DNA from: Fluviicola sp.
Lineage (GTDB): Bacteria > Bacteroidota > Bacteroidia > Flavobacteriales_D > Crocinitomicaceae
NCBI GenBank assembly: GCA_002734085.1
Contig: NVXV01000020.1
Span: 1-56,510, forward strand
Reading direction: 5' to 3'
DNA: 56,510 bases
In this document: piece by piece, positions 10,370 to 27,252 of the stretch
How positions within the stretch are numbered: the first letter of the stretch is position 1
How the letters are laid out: each line of letters opens with the position of its first letter
The notes under the pieces: model-generated
What the model was told of the DNA's origin: nothing
What the model saw: the letters and a program-made list of their open reading frames with translations, nothing else
Database searches by the model: none
Position numbers and translations under genes: made by a program

Positions 10370-10506
10370 AATAGTTGTTATAATTAAATGATTCTGTAAA
10401 GATGCAAAAAAATTAAAAATCTATTTTTCGCCAACGAATCCGTTAAATTTATCGTATTAGATATAAGTGATATTAGATTATTAACGTGATGTTATTTTTC
10501 TTTTAT

Positions 10507-10514
10507 TATATTTG
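10507..10514 (+). promoter_or_regulatory. -7 box (TATATTTG) of the secreted protein gene
   Basis: TATATTTG fits TAnnTTTG. Transcription would start near 10519, leaving a short A-rich leader before the ATG at 10537. This makes the upstream in-frame ATG at 10486 impossible as a start from this promoter. Confidence 0.6.
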
Positions 10515-10536
10515 TTTCACAAAAATTAAAAAAGTT

Positions 10537-12339
10537 ATGAAAAAAATTTATTTACTAGCTGTGATGACAGCAGTTGGAACCATGAGTTTCGCACAGTCTT
10601 CACAAAGACTTTTGCAAAAAGCAGACTTTACAGGGAAAGCTAAAGCAGAAAATCTTACAATTACAGAAAAAGCTCCAGGAGTTACATTATGGAGTGATAC
10701 TTTTGATGATCCATCAAACTGGGTAATCGATGGTGACGGGCAGCAAGGTGCTTGGGAGATTGGTACAAATGCTGATCCAGCAATTGTAACTGATTATACA
10801 TTTTATGGTCCAATGGCATCTACAACTGCAGCAGATGGATTTGCATACTTTGATGGTGTTCCATTTTTAGTTTCTTCACCACCAGCAGTTGACCCTCAAA
10901 ACGCTTGGATTGAAATGGCAAATGCTATTGACATGACAGGTTACCAACGTGTAATATTTTCTTTCGAGCAAAGATACATGGCGTTCAACTCTGACAATAC
11001 AATTGTTGAAGTTAGTTTAGATAATGGTGCTACATGGACTGGTTCTGTTGATGTAAACGTAGATGTTCCAACGAACAATGATCCAGCTGTACAAAACACA
11101 ATTTTCCAAGAGTTCGTTGTAAATGCAGCTACCCAAGTTAAATTTAGATTTCGTTGGGAAAACCCAAGTGATGATGATCAGTTTGGTAGCGGATACGCAT
11201 GGATGGTTGATGATGTAAATATTGCAACTCTACCAGATAATGATATCGACGCATCAAACTTATACTTTGGAACTGAAGGTCTCCACTATTACCAAATACC
11301 AGAAACTCAAATTGCACCTATTGATTTTACAGTAATTGCTAGAAATGCAGGTGTAAATGATCAAGAAGGTGTTGCTTTAGAAGCAACTGAAACAGGTGGT
11401 TCAGGATATGTAGGTACTTCAACACCAGCAGTAATTGCAGCTGGAGATATGGACTCATTAGTAGTGAATTCAGCATTTACTCCAAGTGGACAAGGTACAT
11501 ACGATGTTGAATTTGCAATCTTAAATGATTCTGTTGATGATATTCCTTCAAACAACATGATGGCAGGATATTCATTCGAAGTTGGTGAATTTATCTACGC
11601 TCGTGACAACGGAATGGCTGGTGGATCTTTTGCTCCAGACATGGACTTTGAAGCAGGTAACTTATATGACATCTGGCAAAATCAAGATCTAACAGGAATT
11701 GATGTTAGATTTGGTGCAGGTCTTGATGAAGCAGGTCTTGAAACATTTGCTAGAGTGTATGAAATTGATACAGATGGAAACTTTGTTTTATTAGCAGAAA
11801 CTCCGTTGTACAATACTCAAACTGGAGATGCTGGATCAATTGTAACATATACATTTGAAAACCCAGTTTCTTTAGCTGCAGGAAACACTTATTTGGCTGC
11901 TGTAGGTTCATTCGCTACAGGAATGGCTGTATCTGTTGCTGGTACGTCTGCTGATCAAACATCTTTCCTTTATGGAGATTTAGGTTCAGGAGGTATCGCT
12001 TGGTACTTTGCAAATTCAACTCCTATGGTTAGAATGAACTTCGATCCACAACTTTCAGTTGAAAACAACGAAGTATCTAACTTAAACGTAAGCCAAAACT
12101 TCCCTAACCCATTCTCAACTGAGACTACTGTTGAGTATACATTAGAGAATGCTAGTGAAGTATCTTACACTTTAGTTGATTTAGCTGGTAATACAATCTT
12201 AGAAGTGAACGAAGGTAATGTAATGGCTGGTAAGCATGCAATTACTATCGATGGGTCTTCTTTAGCAAATGGAGTATATTACTTCAACATGACTGCTGGA
12301 GGTGCTCAAACAACTCACAAAATGATTGTGAACAAATAA
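10537..12339 (+). CDS. T9SS-secreted protein with choice-of-anchor J-like and type A sorting domains
   Basis: The protein starts at the ATG at 10537 with a Sec signal peptide (MKKIYLLAVMTAVGTMSFAQ). Residues of about 50-235 resemble a choice-of-anchor J/MAM-like beta-sandwich (TLWSDTFDDPSNW at the start, GYAWMVDDVNI at the end). A CARDB-like domain with LPDNDIDASNLYF and a further beta domain follow. The last 80 residues (NFPNPFSTETTVEY ... GVYYFNM ... HKMIVNK) are a type A T9SS sorting domain, so the protein should cross the outer membrane through the type IX system. It is acidic and rich in small residues. It has its own promoter and a strong terminator. No enzyme motif is visible; adhesion or a surface layer role is possible. 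Confidence 0.9.
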   Translation: MKKIYLLAVMTAVGTMSFAQSSQRLLQKADFTGKAKAENLTITEKAPGVTLWSDTFDDPSNWVIDGDGQQGAWEIGTNADPAIVTDYTFYGPMASTTAADGFAYFDGVPFLVSSPPAVDPQNAWIEMANAIDMTGYQRVIFSFEQRYMAFNSDNTIVEVSLDNGATWTGSVDVNVDVPTNNDPAVQNTIFQEFVVNAATQVKFRFRWENPSDDDQFGSGYAWMVDDVNIATLPDNDIDASNLYFGTEGLHYYQIPETQIAPIDFTVIARNAGVNDQEGVALEATETGGSGYVGTSTPAVIAAGDMDSLVVNSAFTPSGQGTYDVEFAILNDSVDDIPSNNMMAGYSFEVGEFIYARDNGMAGGSFAPDMDFEAGNLYDIWQNQDLTGIDVRFGAGLDEAGLETFARVYEIDTDGNFVLLAETPLYNTQTGDAGSIVTYTFENPVSLAAGNTYLAAVGSFATGMAVSVAGTSADQTSFLYGDLGSGGIAWYFANSTPMVRMNFDPQLSVENNEVSNLNVSQNFPNPFSTETTVEYTLENASEVSYTLVDLAGNTILEVNEGNVMAGKHAITIDGSSLANGVYYFNMTAGGAQTTHKMIVNK

Positions 12340-12392: not shown

Positions 12393-12565
12393 TGTCCGAA
12401 AGTATTATATCACTTGGATTAATAATTGAAAGTCAACAGCTTATTGAGCTTCTAATGTTATGAGTAAAAATGATTACTATTATACTTCAAAAAGTAATTC
12501 ATGAACTTTAACATATATTTAGAAATATCATAAAACATTTTTGAAATTTGACAGTTATATACATT
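12393..12565. other. AT-rich interval before the RNA-element array
   Basis: No gene is seen here. Short open frames exist but lack coding character. The last 25 bases are TA-rich (TATATACATTG at 12556-12566) and may contain the promoter of the first array element, though no exact TAnnTTTG box is present. Confidence 0.5.
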
Positions 12566-12634
12566 GTTAGGTTTCATAAGTAGTAGTGTTAGTTTGAAAA
12601 GGAGAGGACGCCCGTTCTCTCCTTTTCTTTTTCT
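12566..12634 (+). ncRNA. Array element 1: candidate small RNA of about 65 nt
   Basis: The element begins with a 26-base block (12566-12591, starting GTTAGGTTTCATAAGTAG) that is identical in all three copies. It ends with a hairpin: AAAAGGAGAGGA (12597-12608), loop CGCCCG, TTCTCTCCTTTT (12615-12626) and a T-rich tail. Constant 5' block, constant loop and terminator-like end are the usual form of a small regulatory RNA. I do not recognise the family. Confidence 0.6.
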
Positions 12635-12721
12635 ATTATTTCGCTTAAAATTATTTTTAACATTTCTTGACAGATCTAATGTAACAAATCGCAATAACTT
12701 GAGTTATTATACCAAGTAGTA

Positions 12722-12786
12722 GTTAGGTTTCATAAGTAGTAGTGTTAACAAAGGAGAAAGCGCCCGTTTTCTCCTTTGTTGTTTTT
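12722..12786 (+). ncRNA. Array element 2: candidate small RNA of about 65 nt
   Basis: It has the same 26-base block at 12722-12747. The hairpin has a 13-bp stem, AACAAAGGAGAAA (12747-12759) with its complement at 12768-12780, around a loop containing CGCCCG, then GTTTTT. The outer stem sequence differs from copies 1 and 3, but pairing is kept by matched changes in both arms. TACCAAGT at 12710-12717 holds the TA of a possible -7 box at the right distance, but the TTTG part is missing. Confidence 0.6.
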
Positions 12787-12888
12787 AAGAAGTTTATACA
12801 GCTTAAGTGGTTTATCCTATCATTCAACCGTTTAACAGTTTTTAAGAGTGTAGGTCAATATTCCTCTTGAAATTGGTATAAGAATTGC

Positions 12889-12896
12889 TATATTTA
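12889..12896 (+). promoter_or_regulatory. -7-like box (TATATTTA) of array element 3
   Basis: TATATTTA differs from TAnnTTTG only in the last base. A TTG at 12867-12869 lies 19 bases upstream, the usual -33 spacing. The expected start site is about 12901, exactly where the conserved 26-base block begins. Confidence 0.5.
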
Positions 12897-12900
12897 AAGT

Positions 12901-12967
12901 GTTAGGTTTCATAAGTAGTAGTGTTATGTTAGAGGAGAGAACGCCAGTTTTCTCCTCTAACTATTTT
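12901..12967 (+). ncRNA. Array element 3: candidate small RNA of about 66 nt
   Basis: The 26-base block is at 12901-12926. The hairpin stem is 14 bp, GTTAGAGGAGAGAA (12928-12941) with TTTTCTCCTCTAAC (12948-12961), around loop CGCCAG, then TATTTT. It reaches the stop codon of the convergent GT9 gene, so its tail is antisense to the end of that gene. It has the best promoter of the three copies. Confidence 0.65.
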
Positions 12968-13949
12968 AAGACAAATGACTTTCAATTGATTTAACGATTT
13001 CCTCTACATTTTGTTGATTCATACAATTAAAATGTTTCTTTGGACATTTTTGAAACCCAATTTTTGAGCAAGGCCTACAAGCTAAACCCTCTACCTCATG
13101 AATTGAATATAAATCATCGTTTTGAGGCACGTAGGGATACATTCCAAACTCTGGAACAGTATTTCCCCAGACACTTACAATCGGTGTTTTAAATGCAGCT
13201 GCAATATGCATTAAACCTGTATCATGTGTTAATAACACTTTTGATTGTTTTACAACTGAAGCTGACTGGTTCAAATTTAATGCTCCGCAGGCGTTTATTA
13301 TATTGGAGTTACTTGATTTTATAATTTCCTCGGCATCATCATGGTCTTCCTTCCCTCCCAATAATACAACCTGCGTTTCTATTGTAGATAAAACTTCAAC
13401 CATCTTCGAAACAGGAAGCTTCTTAGTTGCAAATTGCGCACCTATTGCAACCGAAACTATGTCTGTAGTGCCAAACTGACCTGACAAATCAACCTCATCT
13501 TTCTTTGGAAGAAAAAAATCCAGCCCTTGCTGGTCATTTTCAATACTTAAAGGTTTTACTGCTTCAAAATAGCGATCTACAATATGAATATCTGGCATAT
13601 TATTCCATTTAAAATTCACATACAACCATTTTTGTACATTAAGTTTTGGAAATGAATATGACTTTGATTTTAATATAGATTTAATCTTTTTCGTGCGAAT
13701 GTTATTATGCAAGTCAATAATATAATCAAATCGCTCAGTTTTTAATGCTTTAATAACTTCCTTATTCTCCTTTCCCCACTTATGTATCTTGTCAACATTC
13801 GGATTAGATTCAAAAAGTAAACTATACTGCTGTTTAGTTAGAATATGTAATTCTACATTTTCTATTTGAGATTTTAAGCATCGAATAACTGGTGTTGTTA
13901 AAACAATATCCCCTATGGAACTAAACCGTATGACTAGAATTTTGGTCAT
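12966..13949 (-). CDS. Glycosyltransferase family 9 (heptosyltransferase-like)
   Basis: GT9 enzymes add heptose or other sugars to the lipopolysaccharide core at the cytoplasmic face. MTKILVIRFSSIGDIVLTTP at the start is the family's conserved N-terminus. I choose the ATG at 13949 because the longer form (to 13973) would begin upstream of the predicted transcript start. The second half has the donor-binding segment LLTHDTGLMHIAAAF and PIVSVWGNTVPEFGMYP. Near the C-terminus there is a cysteine-rich stretch, CRPCSKIGFQKCPKKHFNC, of a kind seen in Bacteroidota GT9 proteins and possibly a metal site. It is divergent from the next gene and convergent with the RNA array. Confidence 0.88.
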   Translation of the reverse strand: MTKILVIRFSSIGDIVLTTPVIRCLKSQIENVELHILTKQQYSLLFESNPNVDKIHKWGKENKEVIKALKTERFDYIIDLHNNIRTKKIKSILKSKSYSFPKLNVQKWLYVNFKWNNMPDIHIVDRYFEAVKPLSIENDQQGLDFFLPKKDEVDLSGQFGTTDIVSVAIGAQFATKKLPVSKMVEVLSTIETQVVLLGGKEDHDDAEEIIKSSNSNIINACGALNLNQSASVVKQSKVLLTHDTGLMHIAAAFKTPIVSVWGNTVPEFGMYPYVPQNDDLYSIHEVEGLACRPCSKIGFQKCPKKHFNCMNQQNVEEIVKSIESHLS

Positions 13950-13954
13950 GAAAG

Positions 13955-13962
13955 CAAATGTA
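13955..13962 (-). promoter_or_regulatory. -7 box (TACATTTG) of the GT9 gene
   Basis: Read on the minus strand, 13962-13955 is TACATTTG. It ends only five bases before the ATG at 13949, so the transcript would have almost no leader. Confidence 0.55.
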
Positions 13963-14026
13963 ATACAAATCATCGATTAATAATTCTATCTTTTCATGAC
14001 TTTCGTTGATTAGAATAAATATTTAA

Positions 14027-25455: not shown

Positions 25456-27252
25456 ATGAAGAACATTCGTAATTTTTGCATTATTGCTCACATTGACCAC
25501 GGGAAAAGTACACTTGCAGACCGTTTATTGCAAACGACTGGAACAATTTCAGATCGTGATATGCAGGAGCAGGCATTAGATGATATGGATTTAGAACGTG
25601 AGCGCGGAATCACGATTAAAAGTCACGCTATCCAGATGGATTACAATTTTGAGGGAATAGATTATACACTTAACCTCATCGACACACCAGGTCACGTAGA
25701 TTTTTCATACGAAGTCTCTCGTTCCATTGCAGCTTGTGAAGGGGCTTTACTTATAGTAGATGCATCACAAGGAATCGAAGCACAAACGATTTCAAATTTA
25801 TATTTGGCACTAGAACATGATTTAGAAATCATACCGATACTCAATAAAATGGACTTGCCGAGTGCGCAACCCGAAGAAGTAACAGATCAAATTGTGGAAC
25901 TTATCGGTTGTGATCCAAATGATGTAATTCAAGCTTCTGGAAAAACTGGACTTGGAGTAGAAGATATTCTAAAGGCTGTTATCAATCGTGTTTCATGCCC
26001 AAAAGGGGATCCGGATGCACCATTACAAGCAATGATATTTGATTCCGTTTTTAATCCTTTTAGAGGAATTATTGCTTATTACAGAATACTAAATGGAAGT
26101 CTTAAAAAAGGTGAGAAAATCAAGTTCGTAAATACTGGAAAAAGTTATGACGCGGACGAAGTAGGCATCCTTAAAATGACTCCACAGCCAAGAAAAGAGG
26201 TTAAAACAGGAGACGTAGGTTATATTATTTCAGGAATCAAGCAAGCTAAAGAAGTTAAAGTTGGTGAAACGATTACTTCTTTTGAAAATCCTTGTAAAGA
26301 AGCAGTAAAAGGTTTTGAAGATGTTAAGCCAATGGTGTTCTCAGGAATATATCCTGTCGATACGGATGATTTTGAAGAACTTCGATATTCAATGGAGAAA
26401 CTTCAATTGAACGACTCTTCTCTTGTATACGAACCAGAGTCTTCTGCTGCCTTAGGTTTCGGATTTAGATGTGGATTCCTGGGTATGTTGCACATGGAAA
26501 TCATTCAGGAACGCTTAGAACGCGAGTTTGATATGACTGTGATTACAACGGTTCCCAACGTATCTTACTTCTGTTATATGAGAAGTAAACCAGAAGAACA
26601 AATCATCGTTAACAACCCATCTGAACTACCAGATCCCGCAGCCATTGAATATATTGAAGAACCATTCATCAAAGCACAAGTAATTACGAAGTCTGAATAT
26701 GTCGGACAAATAATGACCTTGTGCATTGAAAAGCGTGGAGAACTTCAAAATCAAGTGTACCTAACTCAAGATCGTGTTGAAATTACTTTCCAAATGCCAA
26801 TGGCTGAAATTGTTTTTGATTTCTATGACCGATTAAAGTCAGTTTCGAGAGGATATGCATCATTTGATTATTTCCCGATTGGTTATCATCGATCTGATTT
26901 GGTCAAACTAGATATACTTTTAAATCACGAGCAAGTTGATGCACTTTCAGCGTTAGTTCACAGAAGTAATGCATTCGAATTGGGTAAGAAAATATGTATT
27001 AAATTAAAAGAACTTATCCCTAGACAACAATTTGAAATACCCGTTCAGGCCGCCATAGGAGCTAAGGTGGTTGCAAGGGAAACAATAAAAGCACTTCGTA
27101 AAGATGTTACTGCAAAATGCTATGGTGGTGATATCTCACGTAAAAGAAAGCTCTTAGAGAAGCAGAAGCAAGGAAAGAAAAGAATGCGCCAGGTAGGAAG
27201 AGTTGAGGTTCCACAAGAAGCATTTTTAGCTGTTTTAAAGCTGAATGAATAG
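25456..27252 (+). CDS. lepA: Elongation factor 4 (LepA), ribosome back-translocase GTPase
   Basis: LepA is a ribosome-bound GTPase linked to 30S biogenesis and stalled elongation. The 598-residue length is normal. The G1 motif [15 protein letters not shown] (about residue 10-24), the G2 region [21 protein letters not shown] (G3) and NKMDLP (G4) are all intact. The LepA-specific C-terminal domain is present ([20 protein letters not shown] near the end). It is transcribed alone. Confidence 0.97.

Follow-up and report, generated by a model that had tools for sequence, protein, structure and literature searches.

The window analysed here, the whole 56 510-nt stretch of contig NVXV01000020.1 of a Fluviicola sp., contains a 26-base block (GTTAGGTTTCATAAGTAGTAGTGTTA) that occurs exactly three times, at spacings of 156 and 179 nt, between a gene for a protein with a T9SS C-terminal sorting domain and a convergent gene for a family 9 glycosyltransferase (Table 1). 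Each block is followed by a terminator hairpin and a T-rich tail; the loops read CGCCCG in units 1 and 2 and CGCCAG in unit 3, while the outer stems vary between copies and keep their pairing. The first-pass annotation, made from the letters alone, had reported the identical blocks and the varying yet paired hairpins and had considered the spacers not to be conserved. All three observations hold, the 40 nt 5' of the three copies being dissimilar and the remaining spacer having been compared by eye. The sequence AAGTAGTA lies directly 5' of the unit 2 block and may be part of the predicted RNA. The hairpin and tail of unit 3 (12928–12968) extend to the stop codon of the convergent glycosyltransferase gene and may thus terminate transcription on both strands. 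A small ORF in the block was considered and rejected, since the block contains no ATG. When the 4.03-Mb genome was searched with the first 18 bases of the block, allowing two mismatches, three matches were obtained, all of them in these units, and one was obtained with the reversed control.

Table 1. Array, neighbouring genes, putative promoters and sister units in the window and its genome (G000)
Feature	Position	Strand	Description
T9SS C-terminal sorting domain protein (Por_Secre_tail), neighbour	10486..12339	+	homologue beside units in nine loci, window included
Putative unit 1 promoter, AACA ... GTTAT (ECF-like)	12534..12558	+	upstream TTTAACATATATTT element at 12507-12520
Predicted small-RNA unit 1	12566..12636	+	block 12566-12591, hairpin 12597-12626, T tract; R1 match 83.3 bits (unit in R1's own alignment)
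Putative unit 2 promoter, AACAAA ... GTTAT	12683..12707	+	class of unit 1, greater distance to block
Predicted small-RNA unit 2	12722..12788	+	block 12722-12747, hairpin 12748-12779; R1 match 84.2 bits (unit in R1's own alignment)
Sigma-54-type -24/-12 site of unit 3	12873..12888	+	TTGGTATAAGAATTGC, TTGGTAT-N5-TTGC
Predicted small-RNA unit 3	12901..12969	+	block 12901-12926, hairpin 12928-12961; R1 match 81.6 bits (unit in R1's own alignment)
Glycosyltransferase family 9, convergent neighbour	12966..13973	-	from domain search of window protein
lepA (EF-4)	25456..27252	+	~12.5 kb from array in window
Type C copies, window genome	C1:41573, C1:41757, C8:16749, C14:114140, C16:130, C21:39472		starting GATTTAGGTGGTTAGGTTAGGTTGATTAG or close variant
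Type C copies, window genome, remainder	C25:378354, C31:89679, C36:114825, C36:183325		starting GATTTAGGTGGTTAGGTTAGGTTGATTAG or close variant
Type B unit, AGTAGTAGTAGGTTAGGTTGATTAGTGTGA with CGCCCG hairpin	G000:C32:411-483 (L297); F. taffensis C1:2665486		one copy read in each of three genomes

The genomic position of these units recurs among relatives. A unit or array lies directly upstream of lepA, in the same orientation, in 25 of 56 loci (a hand count to which some genomes contribute more than one locus, lepA being identified by a Pfam match of the window copy). In two congeners the T9SS-protein gene, or a different ORF at that position, is followed by three units and then by lepA; the window array keeps the T9SS-protein neighbour, with lepA at 25456 instead of adjoining. 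No unit was found in 80 loci collected via glycosyltransferase homologues. Within the genus Fluviicola, a unit also adjoins a metF-like gene (name read from the protein).

Both a search of relatives for the block and a covariance-model search had been proposed in the first-pass annotation, and both were carried out. With up to two mismatches, the 18-mer was present in 25 of 59 genomes (own included), a count that proves little because the reversed control was present in 30 of the 59; exact matches (40 of the 58) fall in 14 genomes, and every one of the 10 genomes of the genus is among them (hand count). A stronger argument against chance than these counts is the covariation of the hairpin. In an alignment of 29 units, in which TTAG and TTTCATAAGTAGTAGT are invariant, the hairpin comprises 14 pairs, 13 of which show two-sided changes, 94.8 % of the cells pair, and the covariation score was reached by none of 500 shuffles, which bears out the earlier suggestion of selection on RNA structure. 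The fold given by RNAalifold contains this hairpin, with no pairing in the 5' region. The covariance model built from these 29 units (R1) had matches at E<=1e-3 in 132 of 200 genomes of the taxonomic family, the window genome being one of them. These matches span 17 of 24 genera and include the genome taken as the type strain Fluviicola taffensis RW262; the weaker matches in the R1 genome counts are partly sister types and not units of the window's kind (type A). Across the order, 76 of 299 genomes matched, eight of them outside the taxonomic family, and of these eight G228 alone is strong. This genome (locus L229) is 71 % complete and carries a lepA-side array; the array resembles those of genus g18, which points to a possible misplacement or contamination of the bin.

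As the first-pass annotation had anticipated in recognizing no named family, a search of the window against Rfam 15 placed no family above its gathering threshold, and the same was obtained for types B and C (see below). Stretches from 10 relatives yielded two SAM riboswitches and nothing else in Rfam 15. Two congeners have SAM riboswitches in the vicinity of their arrays, at L155:4861-4968 (-) and L161:7857-7974 (+), both near methionine-synthase-like genes (names read from the proteins). Plasmid and phage records contained no match to unit 2; in IMG/VR the type A core was found in 107 stretches, none of which, among those read, has the complete block. By their sequence, the units look like small-RNA genes of a widespread family, of which no description was found in the open-licence literature; nor was any report joining Crocinitomicaceae and small RNA found there. 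The three window units are probably paralogous small-RNA genes, each expected to produce an RNA of ~65–80 nt.

Several weak R1 matches, when read out, proved to be other small-RNA-like units, designated type B (AGTAGTAGTAGGTTAGGTTGATTAGTGTGA plus hairpin) and type C (GATTTAGGTGGTTAGGTTAGGTTGATTAG plus hairpin). The stretch common to B and C is longer than that which either shares with type A, and beyond the UAG/UUAGG motifs and the hairpin the sister types have little in common. A type C model built from 16 units, with two-sided changes in 12 of 14 pairs, found 10 copies above 64 bits in the window genome, six of which belong to the model's own alignment. Some of these 10 copies have a TAnnTTTG promoter box just 5'. 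Matches to the type C model were obtained in 21 of 40 relatives (the window genome counted) and, across the class, in 24 of 395 genomes, of which 19, mostly weak, lie outside the taxonomic family. A consistent relative is present in five genomes of g82, a genus of another taxonomic family; the R2 model gave at most three copies per genome outside the taxonomic family. Type C units were also seen in two IMG/VR contigs, at L484:5937-6009 in a contig with a Mu-type portal protein (a Mu-like phage) and at L483:9324-9399 beside a DNA methyltransferase gene. At four loci (L269, L270, L272 and L274) a conserved terminator-like hairpin is followed by TTTCAT(T/C)AGTAGTA, which is akin to the type A block, but with the hairpin upstream.

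The constant 5' region is marked by UAG, which exceeded mononucleotide shuffles in all seven hand-chosen representative 5' regions (P 0.0006–0.035). Among 45 distinct 5' regions, UUAGG occurs once in 31, twice in six and not at all in eight, three of which are cut short by the folded hairpin start, leaving five of the 45 truly without it. Type A units of the GTTAGG lineage have the UUAGG at position 1 and those of the GTTAGT lineage at ~21–28, with two to seven UAGs. This relocation of UUAGG, together with the varying number of UAGs, suggests that at least part of the constant region binds protein and is thus a candidate protein site.

Hfq was above the cut-off in none of 40 genomes, the one sub-threshold match being in the window's own genome. 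A protein with an RRM_1 domain was detected in 179 of 200 genomes of the taxonomic family, and in at least one genome of all 14 genera with strong type A, versus four of 10 other genera (p=0.0016, uncorrected for phylogeny). There are exceptions: strong type A occurs with no RRM gene detected in at least three genomes (G062, G112 and G166, which are 84, 94 and 89 % complete), no RRM_1 gene was detected in genus g4, where a type C small RNA is clearly present, and four genera with the RRM gene lack strong type A. The link between the small RNAs and the RRM protein is accordingly a correlative one. Of 12 RRM genes, four (hand count) have TAGGT no more than 40 nt from the start codon, versus 12 of 318 other starts, a post hoc comparison that hints at autoregulation. 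At L276, L278, L279 and L281 there is a second RRM paralogue that carries a long acidic tail, three of the four genomes having the GTTAGT block variant. RbpB, an RRM protein of Bacteroides thetaiotaomicron, favours GUAGGAUA, with a KD of 5.1 uM according to a passage of PMC12119571. In the present family, UAG/UUAGG would be a predicted binding motif for a widely conserved bacterial RRM protein.

Promoters were sought upstream of 101 type A places (up to two substitutions) in the window and 80 stretches, a non-random sample of mostly best matches, from which three places with fewer than 60 nt upstream were left out (n=98). A sigma-54-type -24/-12 pattern, TGGYRY-N5-TTG, precedes 41 of the 98 units, compared with ~0.6 expected from its density in the same DNA and 0.04 from mononucleotide shuffles, although the 41 sites are not independent, since the units are related and most, from a total of at least eight genera, come from genus g18. 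Twenty-seven of the 41 lie exactly 25 nt from the block. In unit 3, the TTG-N19-TATATTTA promoter read by the first-pass annotation is probably wrong; the sigma-54-type TTGGTATAAGAATTGC fits better, and in two congeners that share the three-copy layout the third copy has a still better sigma-54 site (TTGGCACAATAATTGG in one, TTGGCACAATACTTGC in the other). The window genome has one RpoN gene, and no GAFTGA-type sigma-54 activator motif was found among the 576 ORFs of the window and 80 stretches around arrays.

The promoter class of copies 1 and 2, AAC-GTTA, resembles ECF promoters as judged from sequence; the ECF-type promoters of Flavobacterium psychrophilum are described, in a passage of PMC9723704, as having a CGT -10 box. 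Among 45 units with at least 85 nt upstream, drawn from three genera of the taxonomic family of which one is that of the window, 23 belong to the loosely defined AAC-GTTA class (or a variant), eight to a sigma-A class (TAnnTTTG) and three to the sigma-54 class, the other 11 being in none of these. The same RNA body thus stands behind sigma-54-type and ECF-like sites in the window genome and behind housekeeping ones in congeners. A palindrome, TACC(A/T)(T/A)GGTA, is located ~40 nt 5' of the block, ahead of the housekeeping -7 box, at L154, L156, L158, L160, L162 and L163, and in these lepA-side units it is a likely operator. By analogy, the units may plausibly respond to envelope or protein-folding stress, because the sigma-54 promoters of F. 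psychrophilum are reported to drive chaperone, envelope-stress, gliding and exported-protein genes as well as the putative sRNA Rfp36 (in part of PMC9723704).

Starting from what sequence comparison establishes, namely the conservation of the family, the covariation of its hairpin, many sigma-54-type sites and more than one promoter class per RNA body, we consider it probable that the units encode RRM-linked, trans-acting small RNAs with several promoter inputs, similar to FopS and RbpB. Each unit would give an RNA of ~65–80 nt that is UAG-rich and unpaired in its 5' region and carries an intrinsic terminator hairpin; the 5' UAG/UUAGG motifs would be bound by the RRM-domain RNA-binding protein, Hfq being undetected; and the RNAs would act in trans after transcription through mRNA pairing, competition for the RRM protein, or both, with different stress or nutrient signals reaching the paralogues via their different promoters. 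The near-frozen unpaired 5' end and the differing promoters suggest one RNA signal wired to several inputs, and the presence of the same RNA body behind different promoters implies that inputs and output are separable.

Among the alternatives, antisense regulation is a tentative but real possibility. In this view TTTCATAAGTA would be the seed; by pairing with ACUUAUGAAA at start codons (AUG AAA) it would block translation, much as FopS is described, in a passage of PMC11697453, to repress susC translation at the start codon. The core is invariant across the 29 aligned units and predicted to be unpaired, and start-codon pairing was tested because the seed complement contains AUGAAA. Duplexes at <= -14 kcal/mol were predicted at 45 of 664 starts of the window genome, compared with a shuffled-seed mean of 28.6 and none of 40 shuffles as high, and at <= -18 kcal/mol there were six at starts versus 1.8 for shuffled seeds. 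However, coding-sequence controls equalled the starts (46 of 664 and four, respectively), and F. taffensis showed no excess at <= -14 kcal/mol (44 of 301 starts; coding controls, 43 of 301; shuffled mean, 43.3). Duplexes of the type C seed at starts were not in excess either. An early duplex run, in which the fifth-best energy was beaten by none of 40 shuffles, was discarded, as its set included loci chosen for seed match. Near-full complements were below their control: with up to three mismatches to the 20-base seed complement, 10 genomes gave six matches outside small-RNA-like sites versus 19 for the reversed control (hand counts). One 17/20 match covers the start codon of a gene for a T9SS-sorted protein in one congener. 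Secreted-like proteins were not clearly enriched, with no excess among the top predictions in the window genome and nine versus 6.5 expected among the top 15 in F. taffensis (four of 40 shuffles as high). In the latter, MK starts numbered nine versus 4.9 (two of 40 shuffles as high), an excess that may be explained by the AUGAAA carried by the seed complement. By these predictions, mRNA targets are not established, and a few real ones could still exist. Thus, of the constant unpaired 5' seed envisaged in the first-pass annotation, the family and the predicted unpaired 5' region stand, while a seed for mRNA pairing is not borne out, controls being as high.

The lack of target enrichment at starts would suit a purely protein-directed role, in which the RNAs mainly titrate the RRM protein through repeated UAG/UUAGG, as CsrB does CsrA, with no mRNA pairing, and in which only the UAG motifs of TTTCATAA would be needed, its other bases being dispensable. 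The varying number and position of a motif that is mostly retained, the sister RNAs with little in common but motifs and hairpin, and the post hoc excess of TAGGT near RRM gene starts all point the same way. Nevertheless, such decoys are rather unlikely, as TTTCATAAGTAGTAG is conserved in both lineages beyond the need of scattered UAG sites and type C occurs in genus g4, where RRM_1 was not detected. Also speculative, and on balance unlikely, is a superfamily of short bacterial RNAs comprising types A, B, C and their relatives, with little in common except single-stranded UAG/UUAGG sites and a terminator hairpin, that would set the level of free RRM protein by Csr-like titration, the RRM protein taking the place of CsrA, through paralogues under different sigma factors. 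The co-oriented position directly upstream of lepA could reflect a leader or attenuator whose hairpin stops transcription ahead of lepA while the block senses something. This is very improbable for units that form multi-unit arrays, each with a terminator and many with their own promoter-like site, that carry the same RNA body under different promoters, and that in 31 of 56 loci, the window's among them, are not directly upstream of lepA. Finally, multiple tandem copies are typical of what a repeated DNA element (REP, MITE or transposon end) with no RNA function would show, an explanation that the first-pass annotation had itself kept in view. Its probability is close to nil: it is contradicted by the two-sided changes in 13 of the 14 stem pairs, by the constant spacing between promoter-like sites and the block and by the shared position in many genomes, and none of the seven window proteins scanned for domains is a transposase.

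The favoured reading, that of RRM-linked trans-acting small RNAs, can be set beside several known systems. The Qrr small RNAs of Vibrio, which share a constant 5' part and end in a terminator, are encoded by several near-identical sigma-54-driven genes; they need Hfq and act in quorum sensing. Sigma-54-type sites are likewise found by sequence at copy 3 and 40 other units, but here Hfq was undetected (0 of 40 genomes) and no GAFTGA-type activator motif was found around the arrays. CsrB and CsrC are protein-titrating RNAs with repeated short protein-binding motifs, and the enrichment of UAG as a candidate motif is reminiscent of them, although the motif, the protein fold (RRM) and the much shorter RNA are different; titration of the CsrB/CsrC type is outlined in a passage of PMC12119571. 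Rfp36 and Rfp18 of Flavobacterium psychrophilum, compared by their description in part of PMC9723704, are likewise flavobacterial putative regulatory RNAs, Rfp36 being listed under a sigma-54 promoter, whereas Rfp18 is strongly structured and pairs via its third stem-loop.

The nearest working analogue is FopS with RbpB in Bacteroides. FopS of B. thetaiotaomicron, as a passage of PMC11697453 describes it, is a 14-member family of ~65–70 nt RNAs with a common 5' region and a 41-nt motif shared by its members, is bound by the RRM protein RbpB and also occurs in a phage; a type C unit was found here in a Mu-like phage contig, and the FopS host is described in a passage of PMC7366714 as having no obvious Hfq. 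The likeness, which is one of anatomy with RNA length predicted, extends to multicopy short RNA genes with a constant 5' region and a terminator. FopS was compared by description rather than by sequence, and the counterpart of its RRM binding is gene co-occurrence. The promoters differ, those of FopS being described as of the housekeeping type (sigma-ABfr), whereas 41 of 98 units here have sigma-54-type sites. FopS and GibS with RbpB are the worked cases found of small-RNA action in Bacteroidota, which generally lack Hfq, and the present RNA family extends that picture to another order, including the type strain Fluviicola taffensis RW262.
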